64,000 bases of DNA from Clostridium sp. MSJ-8 (GTDB taxonomy: Bacteria; Bacillota; Clostridia; Clostridiales; Clostridiaceae). The stretch covers positions 28,481 to 92,480 of the forward strand of contig NZ_JAHLQH010000032.1 in NCBI RefSeq assembly GCF_018918325.1, in the 5' to 3' direction. Shown one piece after another: positions 43,340 through 59,645 of the stretch. The notes under the pieces are model-generated. The model saw nothing but the letters and a program-made list of their open reading frames with translations. It ran no database searches and was not told the origin of the DNA. Made by a program: the position numbers and the translations under genes. Numbering within the stretch: the stretch's first letter is position 1; every line of letters begins with the position of its first letter.

Positions 43340-44773
43340 ATGAAAATTGCAAGGGTATATATAGGGGAATTCCCTAGTGTAACAATAACAGGATGTACTA
43401 TTAATCAAAATGTAAACGAACACGCATATGCAAGTATAACAGGAATAATAGAAGAAGATGTAATAGATGCATGCATGAATAAGGGAAAATCAGAATCTTA
43501 TCTTACAATAAAGGCAGTGGATGAGGAGAATGGCCATAAGGATATTTTTAAAGGAATTGTATATTCTATGAAAATAGAAAACGATGGCGCAGTTAATACT
43601 CTAGAGTTAGTTCTAGTAACAGGAACTATAAAATTAGACGGTAATAATTATACAAAAACATTTCAAAATTCAGGTACAACATATTCAAAACTATTCAAGA
43701 ATCTAGAAAAGTCAGAAGCTGCATCTAGTATTATGTATGCTGATGATAAAGGTATAGGGAAGATGGTTGTACAATATAATGAAACTAATTGGGAATTTGC
43801 TCAAAGGATAGCATCTAATATGGGAACTTGTATATATCCAGAAGTATCATTTGCTAGTCCTAGATACTATATTGGAGTAGGCAAGGGATCTAAAAGTGCA
43901 GAGATTACAACAAGTTCAGTAAGGATAAAACAATCAGTAGAGAAATATATGTTAGATAATAATAAAGAATCTATAGAGAAGATAAAAGATTGTGTAGCAT
44001 ATGAAGTTGAATCTAGAGATTATGCACCTATAGGTAGCAAGGTGTCAATACCTAGTGCAAGTGAAACTCTATACATATATAGTGTTAATACTTCTCTTAT
44101 AAGAGGGGAAATAATAAATAAGTATGTACTTAAGAGCAAGGGTGGATTTGACAGAGTAAGAAAATATAATCATAAGCTTATAGGAGCTTCGTTAGGTGGA
44201 AAGATAACAGGAGTATCTGGTTCAACAGTAAAGATATCAGTAGATGAGGATGGAAAAAATGGCAATGGAGATTGTGGATCTAAAGATTTTGCATATTCTA
44301 CTGTATATTCTTCTCCAGATGGTACTGGCTGGTATTGTATGCCAGAAGAAGGAGATAGAATAAGAGTGTATTTCCCAACAGAGAAAGAAGAAGATGGATA
44401 TGTAATAAGTTCAGTTCACTTAGATGTAGATAGTTCAGCATCTAATAGTTCTGCTAGATCTAATCCAGATGAGAAGTCTATATCTAATAAGCAAAATAAA
44501 CAAATTATATTTGCACCTACTTATATAGAGATAACTAATAATGAAATGGGCTCAGCTATAAAATTAGATGATGAAAATGGAATTACAATAACTACAGATA
44601 AATCAATATACTTTAAGGCAGATAAGGGAATAGAATTCAATAGTGCTAATGATATATATTTAACAGCAAATAAACAAATTAATATGGAACAAAGTGATCA
44701 AAATTCTATTCTATTAGATGAAAAAGCAATTACTATAAAAGGCCCTAAAGTAAAAATGCAGGATAAGGAATAA
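43340..44773 (+). CDS. VgrG-like spike protein
   Basis: A 477-residue protein built like the VgrG / phage gpD-gpV spike of contractile injection systems. The N-terminal half is the gpD-like part with the hallmark MVVQYNETNWEFAQRIASNMG. Around 285-370 lies an OB-fold gp5-like segment (GGKITGVSGSTVKISVDEDG, then GTGWYCMPEEGDRIRVYFP). The end (about 395-477) is a beta-helix repeat of alternating polar strands (EITNNEMGSAIKLDDENGITITTDKSIYFKADKGIEF). In the cell it would trimerise into a needle. No toxin is fused to this copy. ATG 43340 follows AGAAGGGGTAAAGAAGT. Neighbours are an Eag-like gene and further cassette genes. Confidence 0.8.
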   Translation: MKIARVYIGEFPSVTITGCTINQNVNEHAYASITGIIEEDVIDACMNKGKSESYLTIKAVDEENGHKDIFKGIVYSMKIENDGAVNTLELVLVTGTIKLDGNNYTKTFQNSGTTYSKLFKNLEKSEAASSIMYADDKGIGKMVVQYNETNWEFAQRIASNMGTCIYPEVSFASPRYYIGVGKGSKSAEITTSSVRIKQSVEKYMLDNNKESIEKIKDCVAYEVESRDYAPIGSKVSIPSASETLYIYSVNTSLIRGEIINKYVLKSKGGFDRVRKYNHKLIGASLGGKITGVSGSTVKISVDEDGKNGNGDCGSKDFAYSTVYSSPDGTGWYCMPEEGDRIRVYFPTEKEEDGYVISSVHLDVDSSASNSSARSNPDEKSISNKQNKQIIFAPTYIEITNNEMGSAIKLDDENGITITTDKSIYFKADKGIEFNSANDIYLTANKQINMEQSDQNSILLDEKAITIKGPKVKMQDKE

Positions 44774-44779
44774 GATATT

Positions 44780-45379
44780 ATGGCGTTACATGTACAAAAG
44801 GTTAATAAAGAAGAAATAATAAAATATGCAGCAAATTTATTAGAAAAGAGATTAGAAAATAATATAGATATTATAGGTGAATATGTAAAAAATAATGCGG
44901 ATAATATAGTAGCAAAGTTATATGATGATGTTGATAGGTTGTATAAACAAGGAATAGATATGCAGAGAAATTCAAATAAAAATGATATAGCATATATAAG
45001 TATATTTCTTATGAGACATTATTATTATACTAGAAATTATCCTATTCACATATATCTATATGATAGTACAAGATATCTAGATAAAAATGAATGCATGATT
45101 GAGATTAATTTAGATTTTATAATGGATTATTATAATGGAGACTTAGAATATATAGAGAGAGAGTTAAAGAAGAAATATATCAGAATAGATCAAGATATAC
45201 TTCAGGAGATACAGAAGAGGTATCTAGGAGAATATTATAGATTGATAGTTAACTTCTTTGTAGAATCAAAGGATATATTTCTTATGGTTTCGAGTATAGA
45301 TGATCTTAAGATTACTGATGATATGAAAATTACTATAGGAGAATATCTAGATGAAGGAACTGTAATAGGAGGGCTTTAA
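44780..45379 (+). CDS. Hypothetical protein of the VgrG cassette (199 residues)
   Basis: A helical, charged cytoplasmic protein starting MALHVQKVNKEEIIKYAANLLEKRLENNIDI. No signal peptide, membrane segment or known motif is seen. The gene is tightly placed: 6 bases after the first VgrG-like gene and 2 bases before the next ORF, so it belongs to the same operon. An adaptor or chaperone for one of the spike proteins is plausible. The second half contains an Ile/Asp-rich strand region (LIVNFFVESKDIFLMVSSIDDLKITDDMKITIGEYL). No family assigned. Confidence 0.5.
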   Translation: MALHVQKVNKEEIIKYAANLLEKRLENNIDIIGEYVKNNADNIVAKLYDDVDRLYKQGIDMQRNSNKNDIAYISIFLMRHYYYTRNYPIHIYLYDSTRYLDKNECMIEINLDFIMDYYNGDLEYIERELKKKYIRIDQDILQEIQKRYLGEYYRLIVNFFVESKDIFLMVSSIDDLKITDDMKITIGEYLDEGTVIGGL

Positions 45380-45381
45380 AT

Positions 45382-45906
45382 ATGAAATATTTTTTGATAG
45401 AAAGTGATGCATCTCTTATTAATAAACCAGAATTAATTAATTGGTATAAGATTATAGATAAAAAGAGCATTGATGATGGAAAATACAATAAACTAGATGA
45501 TAAAACAGCAGTCTATATAAAATCAAATAAAGATACTGTTTTTTATGATGTTGTAACTTCTCCTATTTTTATAGTAAAAAAAGAATTAAAAGAACTTATA
45601 AGTCTGTTTGAACCTAATCTTGGATATAAACAACTTATATTAGTTGATAAAGATAATAGTCAAATGGAACAATATTATATACCTGAATTATTAAGAATAG
45701 ATTGCTTAGATAAAAGTACAATATATAACATAGATAAAAGCGTAATAAAAGAAGGCGTTATAGATACTAGTAAACTTCTAGACAAAGCAATATTTAGAAT
45801 AAAAAATATTCAAACTACAAATATTGTAGTAAGAATGGATCTATTAGAAGCTATGCTTAAGAGAGATTATAGAGGGTTTACAGTAAGAGAATTAAAGAAA
45901 GTGTAG
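45382..45906 (+). CDS. Immunity-like protein (Imm11/DUF1629-type signature)
   Basis: A 174-residue acidic cytoplasmic protein. The pattern of an N-terminal beta stretch (MKYFLIESD) and a C-terminal LLDKAIFRIKNIQTTNIVVRMDLLEAMLKRDYRGFTV recalls the Imm11/DUF1629 family, whose members are encoded beside polymorphic toxins and end with a similar 'FR-(K/G)-...-(I/V)-L-A-x-x-L-L-x-x-G' segment. The resemblance is partial. ATG 45382 follows GGAGGGCTTTAAAT. It overlaps nothing and is 12 bases upstream of the PAAR-like gene. Function as an immunity protein or cassette adaptor is inference. Confidence 0.4.
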   Translation: MKYFLIESDASLINKPELINWYKIIDKKSIDDGKYNKLDDKTAVYIKSNKDTVFYDVVTSPIFIVKKELKELISLFEPNLGYKQLILVDKDNSQMEQYYIPELLRIDCLDKSTIYNIDKSVIKEGVIDTSKLLDKAIFRIKNIQTTNIVVRMDLLEAMLKRDYRGFTVRELKKV

Positions 45907-45918
45907 GTGAAAAAAACT

Positions 45919-46467
45919 ATGGCAGCGAAAAAAGGATATTCTAAACCTCAAGAAAATAGTGAGGATTGTGCTAATGTAGAAATTACAGATGAAGAACAAC
46001 AGTATATAGAGGATAATGTAAGTAGTTCTAATTCTTCTCCAGCAGAATATACAACTAGAGGTGTGTCTCTTAGGTGCAAATTTGGAACTCATACAAGAAG
46101 AGTTAATTTAAAAGAAGATCATGGAGTTACAATTATGCACGAAGATGACAAATATTATCATCCGTTGATATTAGAAGAAGATTGCAAACTTAATGATAAT
46201 ATTAACGTATTTGGAATATGTAATTCACCATCTGTACCAAAGGGGCAAAAGATAACATTATTAGATGAAGAGAAAAACAATCCTATAGTGGGGTACCCTT
46301 GTGTATGTCAGATACTTGGTAAGTGGGCAGATGCCAAGGAGAACTTTGAGATAAATGACAAGAAAGTATTAACTACAAAATCATTTTTAGTATGTGCATA
46401 TCTAGGAGTTATAGAAGTAAAAGAAAAATGTAATGGACTAGAATATGGTGGAGAATTAGATGAATAG
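45919..46467 (+). CDS. PAAR-like tip protein (DUF4280)
   Basis: A 182-residue protein of the DUF4280 PAAR-like family, the sharp tip that caps a VgrG-type spike. After an acidic linker (about 1-45) the domain reads TTRGVSLRCKFGTHTRRVNL, with conserved NSPSVPKGQKITLL and CVCQILGKWADAKENFEI; Cys residues in CKF, CNS, CVC and CAY may bind metal. ATG 45919 is preferred because AGGTG lies nine bases upstream; the frame can also begin at GTG 45907. It lies between an immunity-like gene and the second VgrG, an order expected for a tip-plus-spike-plus-effector set. Confidence 0.75.
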   Translation: MAAKKGYSKPQENSEDCANVEITDEEQQYIEDNVSSSNSSPAEYTTRGVSLRCKFGTHTRRVNLKEDHGVTIMHEDDKYYHPLILEEDCKLNDNINVFGICNSPSVPKGQKITLLDEEKNNPIVGYPCVCQILGKWADAKENFEINDKKVLTTKSFLVCAYLGVIEVKEKCNGLEYGGELDE

Positions 46468-46483
46468 ATAGGTGGGATAATGA

Positions 46484-49075
46484 GTGGGGGAAATAACTCA
46501 AGAGATAATTAAACTTGAAGGCTTTAAAGAATTATATAAATGTTCAAAATGTAATATGATAAATAAACCAGGAGAACATCCAATTATAGATATACAAGGG
46601 GAGATATCTAAAAACTATAATGTTTCGGATATTATAAAGAGATTACAGAATCAACTTATTAAAGTAAAGAATCGAACATTATCAGGAGAATATATTACTA
46701 TATTCTGTGGATACATAGATGAAGTCGAAGTTAATGAAAGCTATGAAGACAGTTATAATGTAGAAATAAGATTAATTTCTAGTAGTTGTAAGACTGATCA
46801 TAAAAAATATTATAGGTCTTATCAAGATGTACAAAAAAATCACAAAGATATTATATTACAAGTTGCAAATGAACTTACGTCTGCTAATGTACAATGTGAT
46901 TTTCATAAGGACAATCCTATAGGAATGCCGCTTATACAATATTATGAAACTAATTGGGAATTTATGAAGAGGGTAGCAAGTGAGTGCAATGAAGCTATAT
47001 TAGTAGATGAGAGTTCTGAGATATTGAGAATAATAATTGGGGCACAGAAAAAAGCATCTAAAGGAATAATAAAAAGCTCAAAGTATGCAATGGGAGTATC
47101 AGAAGATTATTTTAAGAAAAAAGCATTTGCAACTAATATAGATAAATATAAATTTTCTTATGTTGAGGTAGAAACTAAGGATATATATTCTGTAGGTGAT
47201 ACTGTTACGTTTAAAGGAGAAACATATATAGTATGTGAAAAAACTTCAAGGCTAGACGGAACTGAGCTTTTGTTCAAATATAAATTGGCAAATGAAGAGT
47301 ATCTATACCAAAAGAAATATAATAATTTGTTATTGGCAGGATGTACTATACATGGAGTAGTAGAGAAAACAGCTAATGAAACCTTGGAATTAAATCTTGA
47401 ATTACAAGATGAAAATAATAACACTACTAAGTATCCTTATGAATGGGTTCCTGAGACAGGAAATTTGATGTATTGTATGCCAAAAGTAGGAACTAAGGTA
47501 TCGTTATATTTTGCATCTGCATCTGAAAAAAGTGCCAAGGCTATAAATTGTATACGTACAAATGCGTCTTCTAGCGGAAGTGGAATTTATAAAAAGGAAG
47601 AGAAAACATTTGCTACAGAACATGATAATGGAATGGTATTAGCACCAGACTTCTTACTTATATCATCTCAACAAGTGAATGAAAAAACAAACCAATTAAT
47701 GATGGTAGATGATGAGGGAACTCTAGCAGTCAGCAAGAACAAAGTTGTATTTAATGCAGGAATAGGAATAGGATGTAATACTAATAAATTATTTATAACT
47801 GCTAAAGGTAAGATAAATACAAGTGTATGTTCAGGAAATGTCCCAGTATCATATATATTACAAGATCAATATCTAGAGATGGGTTCAACTACTTTAGCTA
47901 TGCTAACAACTGAAACTAAAAGTGACTATAAGAATATAAATGATGCACCAATGAGAAAAGAGTTTAGTTGGTGGGATTTGGCGAAGAATGTAGCAGCAGG
48001 TTTATTAGTTGTAGCAGCAGTAACAGCAGCAGTTGCAGTAACAGTTGCTACATGTGGAGCTGCAGGTCCTGTTATAGCTGGAGCAGTAATAGGTGGTGCA
48101 ACAGCAGGTACACTAGCTGTAGGAACAATGGCTTATGAAGATTATAAGAATGGTGAAGTATCTGATACGAAGGAATTCTGTGCTAAGGTAGGAGTAAAAA
48201 CTTTTGTAGGTGCAGTAACTGGTGCAATAGGTGAAGCGGGCTTAGGAGTCAAAGCCGAATTTGTTGCATCTACTGCTGGAGTTGTTGCAGAAGACGTTTC
48301 ATGCAATGCTATAGATGGAAAGGATTTAACTGATGGTCTTGGATTAGATTTAGTTGTAAATACCATTAGTTTTGGAATATTCGATGCAAAAATACTAAAT
48401 AAGATAGCAGATACACGTCCATTTAGACATATTAGTTCTTCAGTGTCAAATAGTTCAGCTGGTAGAAGCGTATCTAGACTTTGGTCATCTATGCGCAATT
48501 CAGCTAGTTCAGCTAAAAATAGACTGTTTGGCAATGTAACAGATGATACTTTAGGAAATATATTAGAAGCTGACAGAGATGCAGCCAAAAATATATTTAA
48601 AAATGGTGCTGAAAGTGGAGCAGCAACAACTACAAGAAATGAATTAAAGAGTACAACTGATGAACTTATTCATAATGTTAATTCTATGAAAAATAAGAGA
48701 AATACGTTATTACAAGCAAAAAGAAATACTACTGATCGTGCAGCAAGAAGAAGTATAGAGGCAGAAAGAGCAGCACTGAAGACACAAATAAAACAAGCAA
48801 GAAATACTATTGTTGCTAATCAAGGAGAAATTGTAAGATATGATGCGTTGATATCTTCTCTTGGAGTTCAAGCAAGCAAAGATACTATAAAAAATAGCGG
48901 AAAACCATTGGCAAAAGCATTTGGATATAGTTATGCAAAACAAATGGCTATTGAGTATGGAAAAAGTAAATTTTCAAATGGCGTTAATGAGGGGTTAAAA
49001 GGTGCAGTAGATTTTTTGGGCATAGGTGGTCCAAATACTAAAAAAGTTGTAGATGAAATTAATAAAAAAAATTAG
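46484..49075 (+). CDS. VgrG-like protein with C-terminal membrane/toxin-like extension
   Basis: An 863-residue 'evolved VgrG'. Residues about 1-460 are the spike: QYYETNWEFMKRVASECNEAI is the gpD hallmark, followed by the gp5-like OB fold (KYPYEWVPETGNLMYCMPKVGTKVSLYF) and a short needle. Residues about 505-560 are strongly hydrophobic, with Gly/Ala-rich helices (VAAGLLVVAAVTAAVAVTVA then AAGPVIAGAVIGGATAG). The last 300 residues are basic coiled helices with no known toxin motif (NSMKNKRNTLLQAKRNTTDRAARRS). The pattern of spike plus membrane segment plus C-terminal domain is that of a polymorphic toxin effector. GTG 46484 follows AGGTGGGATAATGA. No T6SS sheath or tube gene is seen in the window. 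Confidence 0.7.
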   Translation: MGEITQEIIKLEGFKELYKCSKCNMINKPGEHPIIDIQGEISKNYNVSDIIKRLQNQLIKVKNRTLSGEYITIFCGYIDEVEVNESYEDSYNVEIRLISSSCKTDHKKYYRSYQDVQKNHKDIILQVANELTSANVQCDFHKDNPIGMPLIQYYETNWEFMKRVASECNEAILVDESSEILRIIIGAQKKASKGIIKSSKYAMGVSEDYFKKKAFATNIDKYKFSYVEVETKDIYSVGDTVTFKGETYIVCEKTSRLDGTELLFKYKLANEEYLYQKKYNNLLLAGCTIHGVVEKTANETLELNLELQDENNNTTKYPYEWVPETGNLMYCMPKVGTKVSLYFASASEKSAKAINCIRTNASSSGSGIYKKEEKTFATEHDNGMVLAPDFLLISSQQVNEKTNQLMMVDDEGTLAVSKNKVVFNAGIGIGCNTNKLFITAKGKINTSVCSGNVPVSYILQDQYLEMGSTTLAMLTTETKSDYKNINDAPMRKEFSWWDLAKNVAAGLLVVAAVTAAVAVTVATCGAAGPVIAGAVIGGATAGTLAVGTMAYEDYKNGEVSDTKEFCAKVGVKTFVGAVTGAIGEAGLGVKAEFVASTAGVVAEDVSCNAIDGKDLTDGLGLDLVVNTISFGIFDAKILNKIADTRPFRHISSSVSNSSAGRSVSRLWSSMRNSASSAKNRLFGNVTDDTLGNILEADRDAAKNIFKNGAESGAATTTRNELKSTTDELIHNVNSMKNKRNTLLQAKRNTTDRAARRSIEAERAALKTQIKQARNTIVANQGEIVRYDALISSLGVQASKDTIKNSGKPLAKAFGYSYAKQMAIEYGKSKFSNGVNEGLKGAVDFLGIGGPNTKKVVDEINKKN

Positions 49076-49104
49076 TAAGATATGTATGTGGATAGGAGTA
49101 AACT

Positions 49105-49551
49105 ATGAAGTGTGAAAAACCAACAGAAGAGATGATAAAAACATTTTATAATAATTATAAGGGAAGTATTATATTTGGAATTATTTTATATGGAGGAATA
49201 GCAATAGTAACAACAGGAATGTTTATAGTAGCATTAATAGCAAAGATGCCTACTAAATATATAATATTTAGTGGTGTTATTGCCTTAATATTTATAATTG
49301 TAGTTCAATCTTATATATCATCATTAAGAAAGATGAAAAAAGGAGAGTTTATGGTAGCAAAAGCTATATATCAGGGAGTAAATGATACCATAAATTCTAC
49401 AATGAAATATACAATAACATATGAAAATGATGAAGGTGTTATGGAGACTAAAGGTTATTATGTTGATGCTTATAAAGGTAGAAAGTTAAAAAAAGGAGAA
49501 GAGATAATTATTGCAATAATGCCTAATGAAGTTATGTATGTTTTAAAATAA
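49105..49551 (+). CDS. Two-helix membrane protein, candidate immunity protein (copy 1)
   Basis: A 148-residue membrane protein right after the toxin-like VgrG. Two transmembrane helices are at about 24-46 (FGIILYGGIAIVTTGMFIVALIA) and 53-73 (IIFSGVIALIFIIVVQSYIS), followed by a soluble beta domain (YTITYENDEGVMETKGYYVDAYKG) of DUF3592 type. A second, closely similar copy lies 100 bases downstream. Small membrane proteins encoded just behind an effector with membrane helices are typical immunity proteins, but that is inference. ATG 49105 follows ATAGGAGTAAACT. Confidence 0.6.
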   Translation: MKCEKPTEEMIKTFYNNYKGSIIFGIILYGGIAIVTTGMFIVALIAKMPTKYIIFSGVIALIFIIVVQSYISSLRKMKKGEFMVAKAIYQGVNDTINSTMKYTITYENDEGVMETKGYYVDAYKGRKLKKGEEIIIAIMPNEVMYVLK

Positions 49552-49576
49552 TAAAATGTATAAAAGAAGTAAGTAA

Positions 49577-49615
49577 TGCCTTGGAAGAATTATTTAATAA
49601 TTTAACCAAGGTGTT
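49577..49615 (+). terminator. Decayed terminator copy after membrane gene 1
   Basis: CCTTGG (49579) and CCAAGG (49606) close the same hairpin as at 50123, but here the T-run is replaced by TGTTATGTT. The duplicated unit therefore carried its terminator, which has decayed in this copy and may allow read-through into copy 2. Confidence 0.6.
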
Positions 49616-49650
49616 ATGTTACAAAATTGTATAAGAAAGATAGGGTACAT

Positions 49651-50100
49651 ATGAAAAGTGAAAAACCAACAGAAGAGATGAAAAAAGCATTTTATAAGAA
49701 TTATAAGGGGAGTGTTATATTAGGAATTATTATTTTTGGAGTGCTAGCATTAGTAACAACAGGAATGTTTATAGTAGCATTAGTAGCAAAGATACCTACT
49801 AAATATATAATATTTAGTGGTGTTATTGCCTTAATATTTATAATTGTAGTTCAATCCTATATATCATCATTAAGAAAGATGAAAAAAGGAGATTTTATGG
49901 TTGCAAAAGTTGTTTATCAAAGCATACATAATTATAGAAATTCTTCAATGAAGATGAAAGTAGTATATGAAAATGATGAAGGAAATTTAGAAACTAAAGA
50001 CTTTGAATTCAATACTTATAAAAGAAGAAAGCCGTTTGTAAAGGGAGAAGAACTGACAGTTGCAATAATGCCTAATGAAGTTATGTATGTTCTAGAATAA
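49651..50100 (+). CDS. Two-helix membrane protein, candidate immunity protein (copy 2)
   Basis: A 149-residue paralogue of the preceding gene. The hydrophobic half is almost identical (VTTGMFIVALVAKIPTKYII is shared with two changes), whereas the soluble half (NYRNSSMKMKVVYENDEGNLETKDFEFNTYKRRKPFVKG) has diverged and gained two residues. Divergence limited to the outward domain is what selection on toxin binding would give, though drift is also possible. ATG 49651 is chosen for the match to copy 1; AGGGT precedes it. A TTG at 49627 opens the frame earlier but has no ribosome site. Confidence 0.6.
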   Translation: MKSEKPTEEMKKAFYKNYKGSVILGIIIFGVLALVTTGMFIVALVAKIPTKYIIFSGVIALIFIIVVQSYISSLRKMKKGDFMVAKVVYQSIHNYRNSSMKMKVVYENDEGNLETKDFEFNTYKRRKPFVKGEELTVAIMPNEVMYVLE

Positions 50101-50122
50101 TAAAATATATAAAAGAAGTAAA

Positions 50123-50168
50123 TAATGCCTTGGAAGAATTATTTAATAATTTAACCAAGGCATTTTTA
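50123..50168 (+). terminator. Terminator after membrane gene 2
   Basis: AATGCCTTGG pairs with CCAAGGCATT with inner AATTA/TAATT pairing, then TTTTAT. This is the intact version of the hairpin at 49577. Confidence 0.75.
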
Positions 50169-50188
50169 TAATAATTGAGGGAGAAAAA

Positions 50189-51136
50189 ATGGGAAAAGTA
50201 GAGAATGTAATAAAAATGTTATTTATGCTAAAGAAAAATGAAGTTATAAAGTGTAAGGATATAGCAGAGGAATTAGAAGTGAAAGAAAGACAAGTGAGGT
50301 GCTATAAGGATATATTAAGTGATTTTGTAGAGATAGAATCAATACCAGGAAGATATGGTGGATATATTTTGCGAGATGATGCAATGTTTCCTATTAAAGA
50401 AATATTAAGAGAAGATGAGATGGAACTTGTTAAGGATTTTATAAATGGGTTGGATAGTAACTTAATGGATGGTAATACAGAATTAAAAAAAGCAATAGAT
50501 AAAATTAATTATACAATAAAGAGCAATGAAGAAAATTGTGCTAGTTCAATAATTCCATATTCAAGAGTTAAACCATTAGATGATAATCAAAGAAAGATAA
50601 AAGAAGACATACATAAAAGCTGTATAGAATCTAATGAAGTGATAATTGAATATGGAGATAATAAGGGTACAGTAGATGAAAGAAGAATTCAGCCATATAA
50701 ACTTATAACTTATAAGGGAGAATATTATTTGTATGCTTTTTGCTTAAAGAGAAATGCAATAAGAAATTTTAAGCTAAAGAGAATCAAAAAGTGTATAGTT
50801 ACTAATAAGAAATTTGTTAAAAGTATAGATATGGATAAACATTTAGCAAATGAACGTAAAAATAGTATAGGTATATTTGGTGGAGAAGAATATGATCTTG
50901 AATTGCTAATAAGAAATCCTATGGCTAATACAGTAAAAGAACGTATATGGGTAGATAATCAAGTTATAGATGAAGAAAGCTATCCTGAAGGAATTGTTTT
51001 CAAAGCAAAGATGAAGGGTGGACCCGAAATATTATCATGGATATTAAGTATGGGTGAAAGTGTTACTGTAGTAAAACCAGAAGTATTAAAAACGAAAATA
51101 AGAGAAAAATTAGAAAAAATGATAAAAAATTTATAA
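50189..51136 (+). CDS. WYL-domain transcriptional regulator
   Basis: A 315-residue DNA-binding regulator. Residues 1-60 are a winged helix-turn-helix (VENVIKMLFMLKKNEVIKCKDIAEELEVKERQVRCYKDILSDF). The middle is a WYL domain (KSCIESNEVIIEYGDNKG, then IQPYKLITYKGEYYLYAFCLKRNAIRNFKLKRIKKC), and the end is a WCX-like domain (EEYDLELLIRNPMANTVKERIWV). WYL domains bind nucleic acids or nucleotides and often sit next to CRISPR-Cas loci, where some repress or activate cas genes. ATG 50189 follows GAGGGAGAAAAA. It is read in the same direction as cas6, 317 bases away, with a crRNA-like RNA in between. Confidence 0.88.
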   Translation: MGKVENVIKMLFMLKKNEVIKCKDIAEELEVKERQVRCYKDILSDFVEIESIPGRYGGYILRDDAMFPIKEILREDEMELVKDFINGLDSNLMDGNTELKKAIDKINYTIKSNEENCASSIIPYSRVKPLDDNQRKIKEDIHKSCIESNEVIIEYGDNKGTVDERRIQPYKLITYKGEYYLYAFCLKRNAIRNFKLKRIKKCIVTNKKFVKSIDMDKHLANERKNSIGIFGGEEYDLELLIRNPMANTVKERIWVDNQVIDEESYPEGIVFKAKMKGGPEILSWILSMGESVTVVKPEVLKTKIREKLEKMIKNL

Positions 51137-51183
51137 ATGTGACGTAGATAGAACAGGGTTTACTGTTATAATATAGATGTAAG

Positions 51184-51293
51184 TTAAAATGCAATTATTT
51201 GTAACAAATAATTGCATTTTCCAATATGGTCTACTAGTGATACTTAATTGATATTATTATTCAATTTATATTCCAAATATGGTTCTACTACAG
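51184..51293 (-). ncRNA. Miniature crRNA-like RNA (degenerate repeat, 20-nt guide, degenerate repeat)
   Basis: Read on the minus strand, 51293-51264 matches the array repeat with one inserted T and few changes: TAGTAGAACCATATTTGG against TAGTAGAAACATATTGG, then AATATAAAT against AATGTAAAT. After a 20-nt spacer-like stretch (51263-51244) a second, more decayed copy runs 51243-51211 (begins GTATCAC, contains ACCATATTGGAA). A terminator hairpin follows. The array's real spacers are 33-37 nt, so this guide is short. Its sequence TGAATAATAATATCAATTAA matches 51373-51392 near the cas promoter at 18 of 20 positions. The unit is separate from the main array (8.5 kb away) and inverted. I infer a Cas6-processed RNA that guides Cascade to repress the cas operon. 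Confidence 0.8.
51187..51222. terminator. Shared hairpin terminator of the WYL gene and the crRNA-like RNA
   Basis: AAAATGCAATTATTTGT and ACAAATAATTGCATTTT form a nearly perfect stem with a tiny loop. On the plus strand it follows the WYL gene; on the minus strand it closes the crRNA-like RNA and overlaps the end of its second repeat copy. Confidence 0.75.
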
Positions 51294-51298
51294 ATAAT

Positions 51299-51327
51299 AA
51301 TATATCAAAAAAAAGTTTACATTACAA
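51299..51327 (-). promoter_or_regulatory. Promoter of the crRNA-like RNA
   Basis: On the minus strand, TTGTAA (51327-51322), a 17-base spacer, and TATATT (51304-51299). The start would fall at about 51292, right at the first degenerate repeat. It diverges from the cas promoter. Confidence 0.55.
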
Positions 51328-51369
51328 ATACAATATAAAATGTAAATAATAATGTGCAGGATAAATAAA

Positions 51370-51394
51370 CCGTGAATAATAATATAAATAAAGT
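51370..51394 (+). promoter_or_regulatory. Predicted Cascade target (pseudo-protospacer) at the cas promoter
   Basis: CCG (51370-51372) in the PAM position is followed by TGAATAATAATAT (identical to guide positions 1-13), then a mismatch, AAT, a mismatch, AA; counting two bases into the next repeat the match is 20 of 22. CCN-type PAMs are known for clostridial type I-B systems. The match abuts the -35 box of the cas promoter, so a bound Cascade would cover it. Two distal mismatches and the short guide would favour binding without Cas3 cutting. Confidence 0.75.
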
Positions 51395-51422
51395 TGACAA
51401 AAGGAAAAAAAAGTAATATTAT
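51394..51422 (+). promoter_or_regulatory. cas operon promoter
   Basis: -35 TTGACA (51394-51399), exactly 17 bases, -10 TATTAT (51417-51422). It lies 32 bases before the cas6 ATG. The only gene-free interval in the cas cluster is here, so this should drive the whole operon. Confidence 0.8.
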
Positions 51423-51453
51423 AAACTTGTAGTAATTGGAAAGGAGGTATTTT

Positions 51454-52206
51454 ATGAGATTACTTTTAGAAATGAGATTGTCAAAAAATGAATTTCCTAA
51501 AGATTATCATAGTTCAATAATAAGTTATATCAAGAATGCTTTAAGTGTTTGTGATAATGGAAGGCAATATGATAAGTTCTATAAGGATACACAAAAGAAA
51601 AAGTTTTGTTTTACTGTAATGTTAGGAAAGTGCAAGTTTACTAAAACTAATATTATGTTAGAAGGTAATACGATAAAAATATTAATTTCTATATCTGAAA
51701 TAGGAAATGAAAAATATATATTATTTAATTCTCTTATAGCTCAGAAGAATAAGCTATATCCATTACCTAATGGCAATAATATGATGCTTTTAAAAATAAC
51801 TCAATTGAAGAATGTAGAGATAAAGAGTTCCAAGGCGGTATTTAAAACATATTCTGGATCAGGGTTATGTATAAGAGAACATAATTCTGATACTAATAGA
51901 GATAAATATTATGTTTATAATGAGGAAGGATTCCAAGAACAATTCTTATATGTAGTTAGAGAACAAGCGATTAGAGCAGGTTTTAGTAGAGAGATTGCAG
52001 AAAATGTTAAATTTACTCCAATTAATCTAAAAAAAGTTGTTACATTACATTACGGAATATATATAGATGTTACAGTTGGAATGTTTGAACTAGAAGCAGA
52101 TAGCAGATTGTTGAAACATTTGTATCAAACTGGATTAGGAAGTCGTACATCAGCAGGATATGGAATGTTAGATCTAATAAGTCAGGAAGGAGGAGAAGAA
52201 TGTTAA
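51454..52206 (+). CDS. cas6: Cas6 crRNA endonuclease
   Basis: Cas6 cuts the pre-crRNA within each repeat and leaves a repeat-derived handle of about 8 nt on the crRNA. The 250-residue protein begins MRLLLEMRLSKNEFPKDYHSSIISYI and ends with the Gly-rich RAMP loop HLYQTGLGSRTSAGYGML, the clearest family mark. The N-terminal ferredoxin-like part has a His in the usual region. ATG 51454 follows AAAGGAGGTATTTT; the TTG at 51436 is part of the ribosome site. The stop overlaps the cas8 ATG by 7 bases. It would also process the degenerate repeats upstream if they are recognised. Confidence 0.85.
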   Translation: MRLLLEMRLSKNEFPKDYHSSIISYIKNALSVCDNGRQYDKFYKDTQKKKFCFTVMLGKCKFTKTNIMLEGNTIKILISISEIGNEKYILFNSLIAQKNKLYPLPNGNNMMLLKITQLKNVEIKSSKAVFKTYSGSGLCIREHNSDTNRDKYYVYNEEGFQEQFLYVVREQAIRAGFSREIAENVKFTPINLKKVVTLHYGIYIDVTVGMFELEADSRLLKHLYQTGLGSRTSAGYGMLDLISQEGGEEC

Positions 52207-53579
52207 GAAAAAGTGATAATGAAAGCTATGATACAGCTATAGAAGCTTCGGATTGGAGATATTCTGCTTCTATATGTGGCTTAATAAGATATTTTAGATT
52301 TCATGATATGCAATATAGAATAGATGAAGATACATTATATTTTAATAGCGAAGACATTATAGAAGAAAAATATCTAGATTATGTAGAATATTCTTATGCA
52401 GATAATATGCCACATAAAAACTTAGAATCAAGGTTGTCCTCAGAAGAGTTTACATCAGACGATATAAAGGATATTAATGATATTTTAAAAGCTAATTCAA
52501 TAATGAAGAAGTTGTTTAAAGGAATAAAGTTTGATGGAGAGAATAAGGAAGAAATATTAAAAATAGCACAAGAACATAGGTATGAAATAATAAAAGAAAC
52601 TTATAGAAATAAACTTAATTTATATAGGAATTATTGTAATGAAAATTTATTATTTTCTGAAGAAAAGACATCAAGTAGAGTAGTTGGATATTATATAGAT
52701 ATGGGTAAGAAAAGTAGATCAGTTTCTTATAATTTTGATACAAGTAAATTAAGTTTGACAGATTCTAGATATTTTGATTTTATTCCTTTTGCTTTTTGTG
52801 GTAATAGGGAAATGTTTTTCATCAATGATAATTCTAGTTTAGATATGCTTATATCAACTAATTTGACTTTAGAAAGTAAGTTGAAAAAGCCAAATGAAGA
52901 AGGTAATAAGCAATCTTCAAGAAGTATATTTTTCAACAGTATAATAGAGTCAACTGATTTTATAGATTATGATGTTGAGGTTATTACTAAGAATATTGAT
53001 AATGGTTTTTTTGAAACATTATTTATAAGAAAAGATAGTATAGAGATTTTTAATAAATTAAAAGACTCTATTGATTATAAAGCATTAGATAGTAGTTGTA
53101 AAATAAATGAAAATTATTATATAAGTGCTATGAATGAAGCAATAGATGCTATATTAAATCAATATTATTTAGATAGAACAATTGAGTTGTTTATTAAGAA
53201 CAAAAGAAGTTATGTAGCAACACAATTAATAAAGATTAATAGTTTAATAAAAAAAGGAGGAGAGAATATGAATCAAGCAATGAATAGTGCTTACATGTGT
53301 GCAAAAGATGTAACACAAAAATTAATACAAAAAAAAGCAGAAAATAAAATAGATAGTTATAAACAAAAACTATTAAGTTCAGTAATATTTAAAGATAAAG
53401 AAAGAACATGTCATATTTTATTACAATTGTCAAATTACTCAAATGTATATTTTGGCTTTGCAAATGATATATTTGAAGATTTTGATGGAAATAAAGACGC
53501 TCTTTATACATTTATAAATGCTTTAGGAAGAAATGTAATACAAAATAATGATAATGGAGGAGATAATAATGAAGAATAG
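52200..53579 (+). CDS. cas8: Type I-B large subunit Cas8 (Cst1/Cas8a1-like)
   Basis: The 459-residue large subunit of Cascade, which reads the PAM and bridges to Cas3. The N-terminal WRYSASICGLIRYFRFHDMQYRI, the internal YFDFIPFAFCGNREMFFIND and the C-terminal helical tail match the Cst1/Cas8 group of type I-B by gene order and pattern; sequence conservation in the family is low. No CxxC zinc finger is seen. ATG 52200 follows GGAAGGAGGAGAAGA and overlaps cas6. The gene has a second in-frame start at 53268 with its own strong ribosome site, so its last 103 codons also encode Cas11. It overlaps cas7 by 11 bases. Confidence 0.82.
   Translation: MLRKSDNESYDTAIEASDWRYSASICGLIRYFRFHDMQYRIDEDTLYFNSEDIIEEKYLDYVEYSYADNMPHKNLESRLSSEEFTSDDIKDINDILKANSIMKKLFKGIKFDGENKEEILKIAQEHRYEIIKETYRNKLNLYRNYCNENLLFSEEKTSSRVVGYYIDMGKKSRSVSYNFDTSKLSLTDSRYFDFIPFAFCGNREMFFINDNSSLDMLISTNLTLESKLKKPNEEGNKQSSRSIFFNSIIESTDFIDYDVEVITKNIDNGFFETLFIRKDSIEIFNKLKDSIDYKALDSSCKINENYYISAMNEAIDAILNQYYLDRTIELFIKNKRSYVATQLIKINSLIKKGGENMNQAMNSAYMCAKDVTQKLIQKKAENKIDSYKQKLLSSVIFKDKERTCHILLQLSNYSNVYFGFANDIFEDFDGNKDALYTFINALGRNVIQNNDNGGDNNEE
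53268..53579 (+). CDS. cas11: Cas11 small subunit from an internal start within cas8
   Basis: ATG 53268 is in the cas8 frame (codon 357) and sits 7 bases after AAAAAAGGAGG, a better ribosome site than that of several full genes nearby. The product would be 103 residues, MNQAMNSAYMCAKDVTQKLI... to ...GGDNNEE, mostly helical, the size and type of Cas11 small subunits. In several type I-B, I-C and I-D systems the small subunit is known to be translated from inside the large-subunit gene. No separate cas11 is present in the operon, which supports this. It would line the belly of the Cascade complex. Confidence 0.8.
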   Translation: MNQAMNSAYMCAKDVTQKLIQKKAENKIDSYKQKLLSSVIFKDKERTCHILLQLSNYSNVYFGFANDIFEDFDGNKDALYTFINALGRNVIQNNDNGGDNNEE

Positions 53580-54450
53580 TGCAATAACATTAACAGTAGT
53601 AGCTAATATGACTTCTAATTACTCAGAGGGGTTAGGAAATGTTGCTAGTGTACAAAAGGTATTTAAAAATAGAGAAGTATATGCTATAAGAAGTAGGGAA
53701 AGTTTAAAAAATGCAATTATGGTTCAAAGTGGTATGTATGATGATTTAAAAACTGAAGTGGATGGGGCAACTCAAAAGATGGCTAATAAAGATTTAAATG
53801 TATCTAATTGTAGAGCTCTTGAGGGAGGATATATGAGTACTAAAGGGACTACATATGTAAGAAAAAGTTCTTTTTACTTAACAGATGCTATAGCTACAGA
53901 AAGTTTTGTTAATGAAACAAGATTTCACAATAATCTATATCTAGCAACTAATAAAGCAAATGAATTAGGAGTAAGTGTTCAAGATAAACCTAAAGAATCA
54001 GGATTAATGCCATATCAATATGAATATGATAAATCATTAAAAATTTATAGTATAACAATAGATCTTGACATGATAGGAAAAGATCAAAACTTTGAGGTAG
54101 AAGCAGATAATAAAGAAAAAGCTGATCGTGTAATCAGTTTATTAAGGGCTGTACAAAATTTAAGCTTATTAGTAAAAGGAAATCTTGATAATTCTGAACC
54201 ATTATTTGTAGTGGGCGGATTATCTCCTAGAAAAACTCATTATTTTGAAAATGTAGTCAAGGTTTCTCAAGATAATATTGTATTATCAGAAGATTTGAAA
54301 CAAAAAATTAATAGTGGATTTTCAGTTGGATTATTAAGAGGTGGAGCGTTTAAGAATGAAGATGAAGTTATCAGAGAATTACAACCAAAGTCTGTAATGA
54401 CATTCTTTGATGATTTATGTGAAGAAGTAAAAAAATATTATGAAGTATAA
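53569..54450 (+). CDS. cas7: Cas7 backbone subunit (Cst2/DevR family)
   Basis: The 293-residue RAMP protein that forms the helical backbone along the crRNA guide. Family marks include ITLTVVANMTSNYSEGLGN at the start, FYLTDAIATESFVNETRFHNNLY, DLDMIGKDQNFEVE, VVGGLSPRKTHYFENV and GFSVGLLRGGAF. Cst2/DevR-type Cas7 is typical of type I-B. ATG 53569 follows AATGGAGGAGATAATA inside the end of cas8, so subunit synthesis is coupled. An upstream ATG (53548) lies before the ribosome site. Thirty bases separate it from cas5. Confidence 0.87.
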   Translation: MKNSAITLTVVANMTSNYSEGLGNVASVQKVFKNREVYAIRSRESLKNAIMVQSGMYDDLKTEVDGATQKMANKDLNVSNCRALEGGYMSTKGTTYVRKSSFYLTDAIATESFVNETRFHNNLYLATNKANELGVSVQDKPKESGLMPYQYEYDKSLKIYSITIDLDMIGKDQNFEVEADNKEKADRVISLLRAVQNLSLLVKGNLDNSEPLFVVGGLSPRKTHYFENVVKVSQDNIVLSEDLKQKINSGFSVGLLRGGAFKNEDEVIRELQPKSVMTFFDDLCEEVKKYYEV

Positions 54451-54480
54451 AATAACAGTTGATAGAAAGGTGGTGAAATA

Positions 54481-55566
54481 ATGAGGGCAATTAGATTAAT
54501 AGTTAATCAAAGTAGTGCTAATTATAAAAAAGAAGAAACTTGGGAAAATAAAATGACATATCCATTACCACCTATATCGACAATTATAGGGGCAATACAT
54601 GTAGCGTGTGGATATACTGAATATCATCCTATGGATATTAGCGTACAAGGACAGTATGAATCTATGCATAGAGAACCATATACAGATTATTGCTTTTTAA
54701 ATTCAACTATGGATGATAGAGGAATACTTGTGAAAATGAGAAATGAATCTATGTTATCAACATCATTTGATAGAGTAGCAAAAACTATAGATAGAAGTAG
54801 TAATCTTAAGAAAAACGAAAATTTACTTGTATATGATAGAGAATTATTAACTGAATATCAAGAACTTAAAGAATTAAAGGATAAAATCAGTGAATTTAAA
54901 AGTGGAAGGTTAAAAAATGTTAATATTCTTATAAAAAAGAGAAAAACAGCTTTAGCTGGTAAGAAAAAGAAGCTTGATAAATCTTCTGATGAATTTAAGA
55001 GAATAGATAATAGGGAAAAAGAAATAAAAAAGTTAGAGAAGACAATTAAAGACAGAGTAAAGATTTTTGAAGATGAGAATTGTAATAATAAGTTATCTCA
55101 ATATAGATCTCTTACAACAGCTCTTAGATATTATGAAGTGTTAGATAATATACATTTAATTATTCATATAAGATGTGATGAAGAAACTATGAAGGATATA
55201 ATAGATAATGCTTATAATATTAAATCATTAGGACGTAGTGAAGATTTTATAGATTTAGTTGAAGCAAAAGTTGTTGAATTGTCAGAAGATGTTTATGAGG
55301 AATTAACTAGTAATTATTCTGCATATTTAAATTTTGAAGATGTTAAAAATGAAAAGGTATATTCTAAAGAGAAAACTGGAAGAGAAATAATTGGTACAAA
55401 ATATTATATTAATAAAAATTATGATACAGAAAAGGCTAAGGTTGGCAAAAGAGAATTTGTGAAGAAAAAGGTTTTATATACATCATATTATACAATAGAG
55501 GATACAAGTGAAAATATTTATGTTGATAGAGATGATAAACAAGAATTTATAGTTAATTTTATTTAA
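54481..55566 (+). CDS. cas5: Cas5 with a coiled-coil insertion
   Basis: Cas5 caps the 5' handle of the crRNA. The N-terminal RAMP segment MRAIRLIVNQSSANYKKEET then TYPLPPISTIIGAIHVACGY is characteristic of the Cst/Cas5t type, and the C-terminal half supplies the remaining strands. The total is 361 residues; Cas5 proteins are usually about 220-260. The extra length is a Lys/Glu-rich coiled coil at about residues 115-205 (ELKDKISEFKSGRLKNVNIL, then KKKLDKSSDEFKRIDNREKE). The insertion may contact Cas8, Cas11 or Cas3. ATG 54481 follows AAGGTGGTGAAATA. A 57-base gap with no terminator leads to cas3. Confidence 0.85.
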   Translation: MRAIRLIVNQSSANYKKEETWENKMTYPLPPISTIIGAIHVACGYTEYHPMDISVQGQYESMHREPYTDYCFLNSTMDDRGILVKMRNESMLSTSFDRVAKTIDRSSNLKKNENLLVYDRELLTEYQELKELKDKISEFKSGRLKNVNILIKKRKTALAGKKKKLDKSSDEFKRIDNREKEIKKLEKTIKDRVKIFEDENCNNKLSQYRSLTTALRYYEVLDNIHLIIHIRCDEETMKDIIDNAYNIKSLGRSEDFIDLVEAKVVELSEDVYEELTSNYSAYLNFEDVKNEKVYSKEKTGREIIGTKYYINKNYDTEKAKVGKREFVKKKVLYTSYYTIEDTSENIYVDRDDKQEFIVNFI

Positions 55567-55623
55567 AGCTAATAAGGCAGCAGAATTGAAACTGTTGCCT
55601 TAGAATCTAAGGGGGATTTTCAA

Positions 55624-57834
55624 ATGAATACTAGTGAGTATTTGGCTAAACCAGATAAAACAATAAAAGAACATACACAAGAATTAATAGATTCATTAGA
55701 AATATTAAAAGAATTAGGATATATAAGGGATGAAGAAACTTACAAATTAGTAAAGTTAGCATGTGAATATCATGATTTGGGTAAAGTTAATAGAGAATTT
55801 CAAAAGAGAATAACAGCTGCAAAGAATGGAAAAAAGCTAAAATTTAATTTAGAAAAAGAAATTTTTCATAATATTCTTTCAGCATATATGATAGATAAAG
55901 ATAGTTTTAGTAAAATTGAAGATTATCATAGAGTATGTCATGCAGTAATTAATCATCACAATTATTGTGATGATGCATTTAAATATATTAGTGAGCATAA
56001 GCAGCAAATAAAGGATAGTTTATCAGATATAGAACATTATGAGTTAGGTATAAGGGAAAGAAAAAAAATATCTTGTATGGTTAATGATATTGAAGCTGCG
56101 AAGATAAAGGGATATCTTCACAAGTGTGATTATAGTGCGAGTGCAGGATATGTAGTTGAATATCCAAATAATTTTTTAGAAGAATCATTAAATGATTTAA
56201 TGAAAAGATGGCAAAGTAAAGATTCAAGTAGTCATTGGAATGAACTACAGAAGTTTTGTATAAAAAATAGAGATGAAAATATAATAGCTGTCGCAGAAAC
56301 TGGAATGGGAAAAACTGAAGGTGGCCTTCAATGGATAGGGGATAACAAAGGATTTTTCATACTTCCTATAAGAACAGCTATAAATGCTATTTACGAAAGA
56401 GTGGCAAATGATTTACTAGATAAAAAAAACATAAATGAAAGAGTATCGATATTACATTCAGAATCACTAGAATACTACAATAAGAGAATAAGTGTTGAAG
56501 AACAAGAAAATCTAGATGTTATTGAATATGATAAAAGAGGTAAACAGTTGTCTATGCCATTAAGTATATCAACATTAGATCAATTATTTGATTTTGTTTT
56601 TAAATATCAAGGATTTGAATTAAAATTAACTACGCTAGCATATTCAAAAATAGTAATTGATGAGATTCAGATGTATGGACCAGATTTGTTAGCATATCTT
56701 ATTCGTGGATTAGAAATGATTAATGAAATGGGAGGTAAAATAGCAATAGTAACTGCCACATTACCACCTTTTATAAAGAAATTATTAAGTGAAAATATAT
56801 CATTTAAATGTGGAAAATTTATAAAAGATAAAAATAAAGTTAGGCATAATGTAAAAGTATTAAATGAGAAGATTAATTCAGAGGATGTAGTAAAAAAATA
56901 TAAAGAAAATATTGCAAATAACAAAGGAAATAAGATTTTAGTAATATGTAACACAATAAAAAAGGCTCAACAATTGTATAAAGAATTAAAAGAAAGCGAT
57001 ATAAATAGTAAAGAAATTCATATTCTTCATAGTAGATATATAAAAGTAGATAGAGAAAGAAAAGAACAGGAAATAATTGAATTTGGTAAAACATACAAAG
57101 ATAATGGTGAAATAGATATAAGAAATGGAATATGGATATCAACTTCTCTTGTTGAAGCAAGTTTGGATATAGATTTTGATTGCTTATTTACAGAATTACA
57201 AGATATTAATTCTTTATTTCAAAGGTTTGGAAGATGTAATAGAAAAGGTGCTAAGAATTGCGAAGAAGTTAATTGCTATGTATATACAGATGTTGAACAT
57301 ATAAAAATTGGTAATAGAGGATTTATAGATAAAACAATATTTGATTTATCTAAAAAAGCATTACAAGAGGTAGATGGAAAAATAACTGAAGATGAAAAAA
57401 TAGCATTAATTAATAAGTATTTTAGATACGAAGATGTAAAAGATAGTGATTTTATTCGTGAATATAAGAGAATCTATGATTTTATAAAAGGGATTCAACC
57501 ATATGATATTGAAAAAAAAGAAGTTGATTTAAGAAATATATTGTCAGAGGATATTATACCAGAAGAAGTGTATAAAGAGAATGAAGAAAAGATAATTAAA
57601 GCAGAAAAATCTCTTGCAGAAGATAACCTTAATAGTAATGACAGATTGAAATTAATAAGAAATATAAAGAAATTTATAGTATCTATACCTATGTATGAAG
57701 CAAAGAAAGCAGAGGTATATAGTGTTGTAAAAATTAATAAATATGAGGAAATTAAAGTTATACAATGTGGTTATAACAATGAGTTAGGATATTATAAAGT
57801 TGATGATACAAAGTCAAATAATAATATTTTATAA
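55624..57834 (+). CDS. cas3: Cas3 helicase-nuclease
   Basis: Cas3 unwinds and degrades DNA marked by Cascade. The 736-residue protein has an N-terminal HD nuclease (KEHTQELIDSL, CEYHDLGKV with the metal His-Asp, then NHHNYCDDAF) and a C-terminal superfamily 2 helicase: Walker A AETGMGKT at 224-231, DEIQ at 346-349, TATLPPF, and the final QRFGRCNRKGAKN. All catalytic motifs appear intact, so the effector should be active against true targets. ATG 55624 follows AAGGGGGATTTTCAA. The 3' end is 16 bases from cas4. Confidence 0.93.
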   Translation: MNTSEYLAKPDKTIKEHTQELIDSLEILKELGYIRDEETYKLVKLACEYHDLGKVNREFQKRITAAKNGKKLKFNLEKEIFHNILSAYMIDKDSFSKIEDYHRVCHAVINHHNYCDDAFKYISEHKQQIKDSLSDIEHYELGIRERKKISCMVNDIEAAKIKGYLHKCDYSASAGYVVEYPNNFLEESLNDLMKRWQSKDSSSHWNELQKFCIKNRDENIIAVAETGMGKTEGGLQWIGDNKGFFILPIRTAINAIYERVANDLLDKKNINERVSILHSESLEYYNKRISVEEQENLDVIEYDKRGKQLSMPLSISTLDQLFDFVFKYQGFELKLTTLAYSKIVIDEIQMYGPDLLAYLIRGLEMINEMGGKIAIVTATLPPFIKKLLSENISFKCGKFIKDKNKVRHNVKVLNEKINSEDVVKKYKENIANNKGNKILVICNTIKKAQQLYKELKESDINSKEIHILHSRYIKVDRERKEQEIIEFGKTYKDNGEIDIRNGIWISTSLVEASLDIDFDCLFTELQDINSLFQRFGRCNRKGAKNCEEVNCYVYTDVEHIKIGNRGFIDKTIFDLSKKALQEVDGKITEDEKIALINKYFRYEDVKDSDFIREYKRIYDFIKGIQPYDIEKKEVDLRNILSEDIIPEEVYKENEEKIIKAEKSLAEDNLNSNDRLKLIRNIKKFIVSIPMYEAKKAEVYSVVKINKYEEIKVIQCGYNNELGYYKVDDTKSNNNIL

Positions 57835-57850
57835 GTTATAGGAGAATTAT

Positions 57851-58348
57851 ATGGGAAAGGTAAAAATAACAGGTTTAGATATATATTATTATGAAGTATG
57901 TAAGAGAAAATTATGGTATTTTAATCATGAAATAAGTATGGAACAAAATAGTGAAGATGTGTCTATAGGAAAAGCATTAGATGAGGAAACTTATTCAAGA
58001 GAAAGTAAGCATATCAATATTGATAATGTAATAAATATTGATTTTTTTAAAAACAACAAAATGTTGCATGAGGTGAAAAAAAGTAAAACAATAGAAGAAG
58101 CAAGCATTATGCAAGTTAAGTACTATTTGTATTATTTAAAGTGTAGAGGTGTTGATGGTGCTTATGGTAAGTTAGATTATCCATTATTAAAACAAACTGT
58201 AGAAGTAAATTTAACAGAAGATGATGAGAAAAATATAAAAGATATGGAGAAAAATATTATTAATATTGTTAATGAAAAAGTTCCACCTCAATTAGAAAAG
58301 AAAAAAATATGTAAGAAATGTGCTTATTTTGACTTGTGTTATATCTAA
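57851..58348 (+). CDS. cas4: Cas4 adaptation nuclease
   Basis: Cas4 trims prespacers and helps select PAM-bearing fragments with Cas1-Cas2. The 165-residue protein has the RecB-type core (HEVKKSKTIEEAS, VKYYLYYLKCRGVDGAYGKLDYP) and the four cysteines that bind an iron-sulfur cluster: C17 in YYEVCKRKLWYF and C154, C157, C163 in CKKCAYFDLC. Length is typical. ATG 57851 follows TAGGAGAATTAT. It lies 15 bases upstream of cas1, in the usual cas4-cas1-cas2 order. Confidence 0.92.
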   Translation: MGKVKITGLDIYYYEVCKRKLWYFNHEISMEQNSEDVSIGKALDEETYSRESKHINIDNVINIDFFKNNKMLHEVKKSKTIEEASIMQVKYYLYYLKCRGVDGAYGKLDYPLLKQTVEVNLTEDDEKNIKDMEKNIINIVNEKVPPQLEKKKICKKCAYFDLCYI

Positions 58349-58363
58349 ATGAAGGAGTAATTT

Positions 58364-59356: not shown

Positions 59357-59366
59357 GGTGAAAAGT

Positions 59367-59645
59367 ATGTATGTAATTTTAGTATATGACATAAAAGGTG
59401 ATGAAAAAGGGCAAAGAGTGTTAAACAGAGTTTTTAAAATATGTAAGAGATATTTAACCCATATACAAAATTCTGTTTTTGAAGGAGAGTTATCAGAATC
59501 TCAAATTCTTAAGTTAAAATATGAAATAAAAGGTGAAATAAGAAAAGAGCTTGATTCAGTTATTATATTTAAAAGTAGAAATCAAAGGTGGTTAAGTAAG
59601 GAGATGTGGGGAATAACTGAAGATAAAACAAGCAATTTTTTATAG
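59367..59645 (+). CDS. cas2: Cas2 adaptation subunit
   Basis: Cas2 joins two Cas1 dimers for spacer integration. The 92-residue protein has the ferredoxin-like fold pattern MYVILVYDIKGDEKGQRVL (with the conserved Asp at position 8), CKRYLTHIQNSVFEGELSES and DSVIIFKSRNQRWLSKEMWG. ATG 59367 follows TAAGGTGAAAAGT; GTG 59358 is in frame but would overlap that ribosome site. It is the last cas gene; the array leader begins immediately after. Confidence 0.9.
   Translation: MYVILVYDIKGDEKGQRVLNRVFKICKRYLTHIQNSVFEGELSESQILKLKYEIKGEIRKELDSVIIFKSRNQRWLSKEMWGITEDKTSNFL

Follow-up and report, generated by a model that had tools for sequence, protein, structure and literature searches.

Why would a CRISPR-Cas locus keep, beside cas6 and apart from its array, a decayed pair of repeats around a guide that matches the DNA in front of its own cas genes? 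The question is raised by a 64,000-nucleotide stretch of Clostridium sp. MSJ-8, hereafter the window. Our answer, to which we assign a probability of about 0.9 from the sequence evidence below, is that the unit is a one-spacer mini-CRISPR of the CreR type: its guide pairs with the predicted cas promoter and probably brings Cascade there as a repressor of the entire cas operon.

The features of the locus are collected in Table 1. It has a type I, I-B layout, the subtype name being our reading of the gene set. A tblastn search of plasmids with the window's Cas8 gave no match. The array spacers are 33–37 nt long, and spacers 42 and 53 (array 59831–63824) have the same sequence, which points to duplication or recombination inside the array. 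Within 63861–64000 one repeat of the array stops after 21 bases and gives way to other DNA that resembles the end of an insertion sequence. On contig C15 there are 36 more copies of the array repeat, and the broken repeat together with these copies indicates that a mobile element probably split the array. Upstream, the stretch 43340–50100 encodes a DUF4280 protein, along with one whose match to a phage tail hub is weak and falls below the cut-off. Two tandem paralogues, 89% alike across 300 nt of DNA, come next; they perhaps serve a contractile injection system as its effector and immunity genes. Relatives of the WYL-domain regulator precede cas6 in five loci of the same genus that gave no Csx8 match (L009–L013) and in the Csx8 locus G472, and at greater distance in G629; the regulator is a possible second layer of control.

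Table 1. Features of the cas locus and its guide unit (window positions; all letters read 5′ to 3′ on the strand given).
Feature	Position	Strand	Basis or remark
WYL-domain regulator gene, upstream of cas6	50189–51136		
AT-rich hairpin 3′ of R2, possible bidirectional terminator	51186–51220	−	Fold; 35 nt
R2, second degenerate repeat	51219–51236	−	TAGTAGACCATATTGGAA retained
Guide	51242–51263	−	TGAATAATAATATCAATTAAGT
R1, first degenerate repeat	51264–51293	−	CTGTAGTAGAACCATATTTGGAATATAAAT
Predicted guide-RNA promoter, TTGTAA-17-TATATT	51299–51327	−	Promoter scan; hexamers and spacing also in G049
PAM, CCG	51370–51372	+	Direct reading, target scans
Target of the guide, TGAATAATAATATAAATAAAGT	51373–51394	+	20/22 matched
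Predicted cas promoter, TTGACA-17-TATTAT	51394–51422	+	Promoter scan; TTGACA (−35) at 51394–51399, TATTAT at 51417–51422, spacing 17 bp
cas6	51454–52206	+	Pfam PF01881
cas8, Csx8 family	52200–53579	+	Pfam PF09657
cas7, cas5, cas3, cas4, cas1, cas2	53548–59645	+	Pfam
CRISPR array: 61 complete identical repeats and one cut off after 21 bases	59831–63881	+	

Read directly from the letters of the window, the degenerate repeat-guide-repeat unit runs on the minus strand from about 51293 to 51219, in the 317-nt gap between the WYL-domain regulator gene and cas6. An earlier note on this DNA had described two degenerate array repeats, inverted, flanking a guide, and direct reading of both bore this out: as the array repeat (GTATTAGTAGAAACATATTGGAATGTAAAT) is identical in 61 of 61 full copies, R1 and R2 are decayed copies of it. 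R2 is recognisable only as far as about the expected Cas6 cut, itself an inferred site. From guide start to R2 core the unit measures 33 nt, where array geometry gives 44–48, so that it is 11–15 nt shorter than an array unit. With its decayed repeats, it does not have the form of an ordinary CRISPR array (identical repeats around a 33–37-nt spacer). The note's two outer signals fared less well. The guide-RNA promoter recurs with its hexamers and spacing in the sister locus G049, but it scores only 9/12 and such sites are common (6 found against 4.3 expected). The 35-nt hairpin proposed as a terminator is present, but no T-run follows it (51220–51186) and the terminator scan returned no canonical terminator. 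The stretch 51293–51170 folds at −24.4 kcal/mol (z −2.95), and a search of 49000–53000 against Rfam found nothing at the gathering threshold.

The match to the cas promoter proved as close as had been claimed. Guide and target pair at 18 of 20 and 20 of 22 bases with all of the first 13 matched, the target lies directly 3′ of CCG, and its last base is the first T of the −35 hexamer TTGACA. Dinucleotide shuffling of the 700-nt region, repeated 2000 times, never gave an equally good CCN site, and when no PAM was demanded the best match in this region was the same 51373–51394 site. The PAM-plus-seed pattern, with one mismatch allowed, occurred at 2 sites in the 2.82-Mb assembly (3 for the reversed control), and the sole perfect site was the cas promoter. 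For C. difficile type I-B, PMC8406132 gives YCN as the interference PAM and CCN as the adaptation PAM. The array spacers matched 12 phage records, mostly weakly or in part (the best, H1, is a five-piece join at 75% identity), and these yielded no PAM for the window's own system.

Might the promoter under the target instead yield a small toxin RNA, as in a CreTA-like addiction module? The parts list is that of creA as outlined in part of PMC9458426, and some relatives, for example G467, have a longer leader from which a small RNA is possible. In the window, however, 31 nt separate the end of the −10 (51422) from the cas6 ATG (51454), too short for a toxin gene, and the promoter leads directly into cas6. 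This upholds the earlier view that the locus is no classic CreTA, and makes an addiction module the least probable of the alternatives that we considered.

For comparative evidence on the proposed mini-CRISPR we turned to other Csx8-type loci. In a phylum sample Csx8 was present in 1 of 398 genomes, namely the window's own, and the search was therefore made by families and orders. In PF09657 searches, 13 of 206 genomes in the window's family had Csx8 loci, as did 7 of 71 in a second family (one with two loci) and 9 of 397 in a third. Altogether there were 30 loci, of which 28 were used (G932 was left out, as was G672b, whose upstream DNA was absent). These 28 discovery loci, window included, and 14 check loci not met before and searched with the same settings gave the upstream DNA of 42 Csx8-type cas operons. 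The pattern for reading array repeats was later loosened by one letter, with eight earlier check loci unchanged.

Units were sought blind to any target, by requiring both repeats together to show at most 5 mismatches. Twelve were found (9/28 discovery loci, 3/14 check loci). G016 and G017 also passed (11/28) and were set aside as loci where a real array adjoins cas6. In 20 Markov simulations per locus, a pair at this threshold arose in 3 of the 28 loci (G049, G017 and G016). Four extra units (G467, G761, G1107 and G1445), which brought the total to 16, were accepted with the target's help and so are not independent of the claim. A matching guide-target pair was present in 15 of the 42 loci, with about a dozen different guides. 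The other 27, a few of them poorly covered, had no accepted pair; they include G669 and G057, which adjoin positive loci in the tree. G629, which seems to have had little DNA upstream of its cas6 in the tested stretch, was counted negative, as was the undecided case G016 (repeat with 2 mismatches, target with CCG, mismatches at positions 6 and 12); G1524 offered only 975 bp upstream of cas8. Scan matches in G001, G598, G646 and G017 were dropped as low-complexity, distant-repeat or real-array matches, and a sum-7 repeat pair in G1550 had no good target; G001 also has a sum-7 pair.

For 11 of the 12 blind units, the DNA in front of the unit's own cas6 contained a CCN-flanked target of a quality seldom reached by shuffling (at most 31/2000 shuffles for eight discovery units; at most 45/2000 for three check units, over 18 bases). 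The exception was G858, which keeps both repeats just upstream of cas6 (L096) with a guide whose best CCN target, equalled in 230/2000 shuffles, is not above chance; the real target of this guide may lie elsewhere. Related loci where the repeats stay and the match is lost had been named beforehand as the finding that would speak against the proposal, and G858 is the only one seen. In a swap test, each guide was compared over 15 positions (1–5, 7–11 and 13–17) with its own and all other upstream regions. Its own promoter region ranked first of 28 for 8 of 11 discovery guides, the exceptions being ties (G049 with the window, G672a with G653, and the non-significant G858 with G057), and came ahead of all 41 others for 5 of 5 check guides, three of them target-blind and two (G1107 and G1445) outside the blind threshold. 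With no PAM demanded, CCN still stood in front of the best match in 10 of the 11 discovery units (exception G858; one tie, G672a) and in 3 of 3 blind check units, against a CCN base rate of 2–5% in ten regions. The G1640 target has a perfect seed and matches at only 11/15 of the paired positions.

In many relatives the term cas promoter is a call by position, the promoter scan having covered the discovery loci; in G653 and G672a it found weak promoters only, scoring at best 8.5 and 9.0. From the start of the target forward to the −35 the distance is 39 bp in G465 and G1043 and 47 bp in G466 (read by hand); in G761 and G951 the target lies just downstream of the −10 (partly read by hand). Given these positions, the mode of blocking would differ between loci. 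In G761 (L095) and G467 (L017) the unit appears to be placed within the leader of the cas mRNA, in sense orientation in the former and antisense in the latter; guide RNA and messenger would have sequence in common in G761 and opposing sequence in G467.

Four loci (the window, G049, G653 and G672a) have alignable units in a common position and orientation, and here guide and target could be followed position by position. Over 22 positions they agreed in all four loci at 12, in three at 8 (6, 11, 14, 16, 17, 19, 20 and 22), in one at position 12 and in none at position 18. Three of the 12 fully agreeing positions, 2, 9 and 21, vary between loci, with guide and target changing together. These are the compensating changes in relatives that the earlier note had asked to be looked for. 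In the more distant loci the guides are quite unlike these, and each matches DNA in front of the cas6 of its own locus; together with the co-variation, this supports the note's central proposal, a crRNA-like RNA that would guide Cascade to the cas promoter.

The same comparisons bear on whether the unit is a relic, the dead end of an array whose spacer matches nearby DNA by chance. Its degenerate repeats, and its absence from some relatives, are what a relic would leave. Against this, R2-guide-R1 is identical to that of G049 at 66 of 71 positions (93%) while the flanks agree at only 39/85 (46%) and 21/39 (54%), and matches upstream of the own cas6 recur across loci with different guides, which makes a relic very improbable. 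As distant flanks align poorly, the four-way alignment was not used as a conservation test.

The mismatches that remain between guide and target are not scattered. Across ten pairs, with G858 dropped beforehand and targets chosen on all 18 positions unmasked, the counts at positions 1–18 were 0, 0, 0, 0, 0, 5, 0, 0, 1, 0, 2, 5, 0, 3, 2, 1, 2 and 8. They cluster at positions 6, 12 and 18, those at which type I-B Cascade flips out its bases; these positions hold 18 of the 29 mismatches (P = 5 × 10⁻¹⁰). The discovery scans skipped position 6 in the seed count, but not 12 or 18. Counting the window's guide family as one row, still without G858, left 11 of 19 (P = 7 × 10⁻⁶). The three blind check pairs had 6 of 14 there (P = 0.006) and all five later pairs 11 of 22 (P = 1 × 10⁻⁵), G1445 among them having been chosen by a rule that ignores position 6. 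The seven mismatches of G858 fall at 1, 6, 12, 13, 16, 17 and 18. A passage in PMC11096372 describes the solved type I-B Cascade as pairing in a 5+1 pattern, the sixth base being flipped out. The unit, its match, the PAM, the co-variation and this 6-base register can all be read in the DNA. The register could serve as a sequence-only test for genuine Cascade-guided regulation, usable in searches for other RNAs of this type and the sites that they target.

It also weighs on the proposal that guide and promoter are simply an inverted repeat, an operator for a protein such as the upstream WYL-domain regulator. Such a gene does stand in front of cas6 here and, as relatives, in L009–L013 (of untyped subtype). 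Yet within the stretches of up to 4 kb upstream that were covered in the 10 discovery loci with a pair, a WYL relative was found in the window only; the pair is inverted in the window but direct in G465, whose unit and target share the plus strand; the mismatches keep Cascade's 5+1 register; and the best matches stand behind CCN in nearly all discovery units. We consider an operator very improbable. Neither chance nor a protein operator explains the pairing of unit and target.

The proposed autorepressor unit is unevenly spread over the Cas8 tree (26 discovery proteins; G025, G629, G672b and the 14 later loci left out). In the window's clade (fork support 89/92, drawn open) 9 of 13 members have it; in another clade, where G016 was scored as lacking it, 0 of 11 do. 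G761, close to the midpoint root, has it too. At least 4 changes of the trait are required by the well-supported branches, and 9–10 of 500 shuffles were equally clustered. Both an old trait lost in places and one gained several times would fit this distribution. On a wider reading, to which we give rather less than even odds, a cas autorepressor RNA has been kept through deep diversification of Csx8-type loci, with guide and promoter drifting jointly while pairing persists only in the 5+1 register, with the guide of G761 and G467 having moved inside the leader of the messenger that it would repress, and with Cas6 in G761 cutting its own messenger to produce the repressor.

Transcription of the unit, processing by Cas6, binding and repression are predicted as follows. 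A short minus-strand RNA would start near 51292, and Cas6 would cut R1 and R2, leaving a guide with a crRNA-like handle; its predicted 5′ start is AUAUAAAU at 51271 on the minus strand, and the last 8 bases of R1 (ATATAAAT; array counterpart ATGTAAAT) would form the 5′ handle. Loaded into Cascade (Cas5-Cas6-Cas7-Cas8), this guide would bring the complex to the CCG-flanked site reaching up to the −35 box, blocking RNA polymerase. Because the unit is shorter than an array unit and pairing ends near base 22, Cas3 cutting and priming would be avoided; by analogy with CreA and with Haloarcula guides, short pairing would make Cascade a repressor and not a cutter. In PMC10989794, Haloarcula guides of 20–24 nt are described as repressors, weak ones at 20 nt, with interference and priming fading; very weak priming against a virus is mentioned there for 24 bp. 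Shortness is not universal, since the G1640 unit has array-like spacing. Abundant crRNAs, or an anti-CRISPR removing Cascade, would release the promoter. If this is true, the unit is a self-set thermostat that senses free Cascade and keeps CRISPR expression low yet ready in these Clostridia, and cas expression would rise under an anti-CRISPR that acts on Cascade.

How does this element relate to known systems? Liu et al. (2023, Cell Host & Microbe) reportedly described CreR, cas-regulating RNAs, and Shmakov et al. (2023, NAR gkad495) are said to have found crRNA-like regulatory mini-arrays, standalone repeats with spacers partly matching cas promoters. By that description, the unit resembles the mini-arrays in its standalone repeats and partial cas-promoter match. 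In type II systems, a long-form tracrRNA is said (Workman et al., 2021) to let the Cas effector repress its own promoter; there Cas9 acts with a tracrRNA, whereas here Cascade would act with a repeat pair. Among the literature matches listed, none concerned this element in Csx8 loci, which is no proof, as neither Liu 2023 nor Shmakov 2023 was among them.

The likeness to CreA of CreTA, as passages in PMC9458426 and PMC10989794 present it, lies in two decayed repeats, a seed match to a promoter (CreA acts through an 11-bp seed) and Cascade as the repressor; CreA guards a toxin promoter, whereas the target here leads into cas6. CreR is closest. In the parts seen of PMC13131331 and PMC12737573 it autorepresses type I-B, I-E and V-A effectors, and PMC12948488 also describes it. 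These descriptions give CreR as a crRNA-like RNA, generally without a toxin, that partly matches the cas promoter, with type I-B among its subtypes; the candidate RNA of the unit shares these traits. Repeat copies surround a guide separate from the array, limited complementarity to the cas promoter is joined to a PAM that is valid judged by C. difficile type I-B, the putatively repressed promoter in the window has no toxin gene, and guide and target are kept together in relatives, G858 excepted. Unlike CreR as described there, it belongs to Csx8-type loci of Clostridia, co-variation of guide and target is demonstrated, and its position varies among relatives (antisense upstream, sense upstream, or within the cas leader). 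Autorepression of the CreR type was thus already known; what the present loci add is its probable occurrence beside Csx8-type cas genes, with strong evidence from co-variation.
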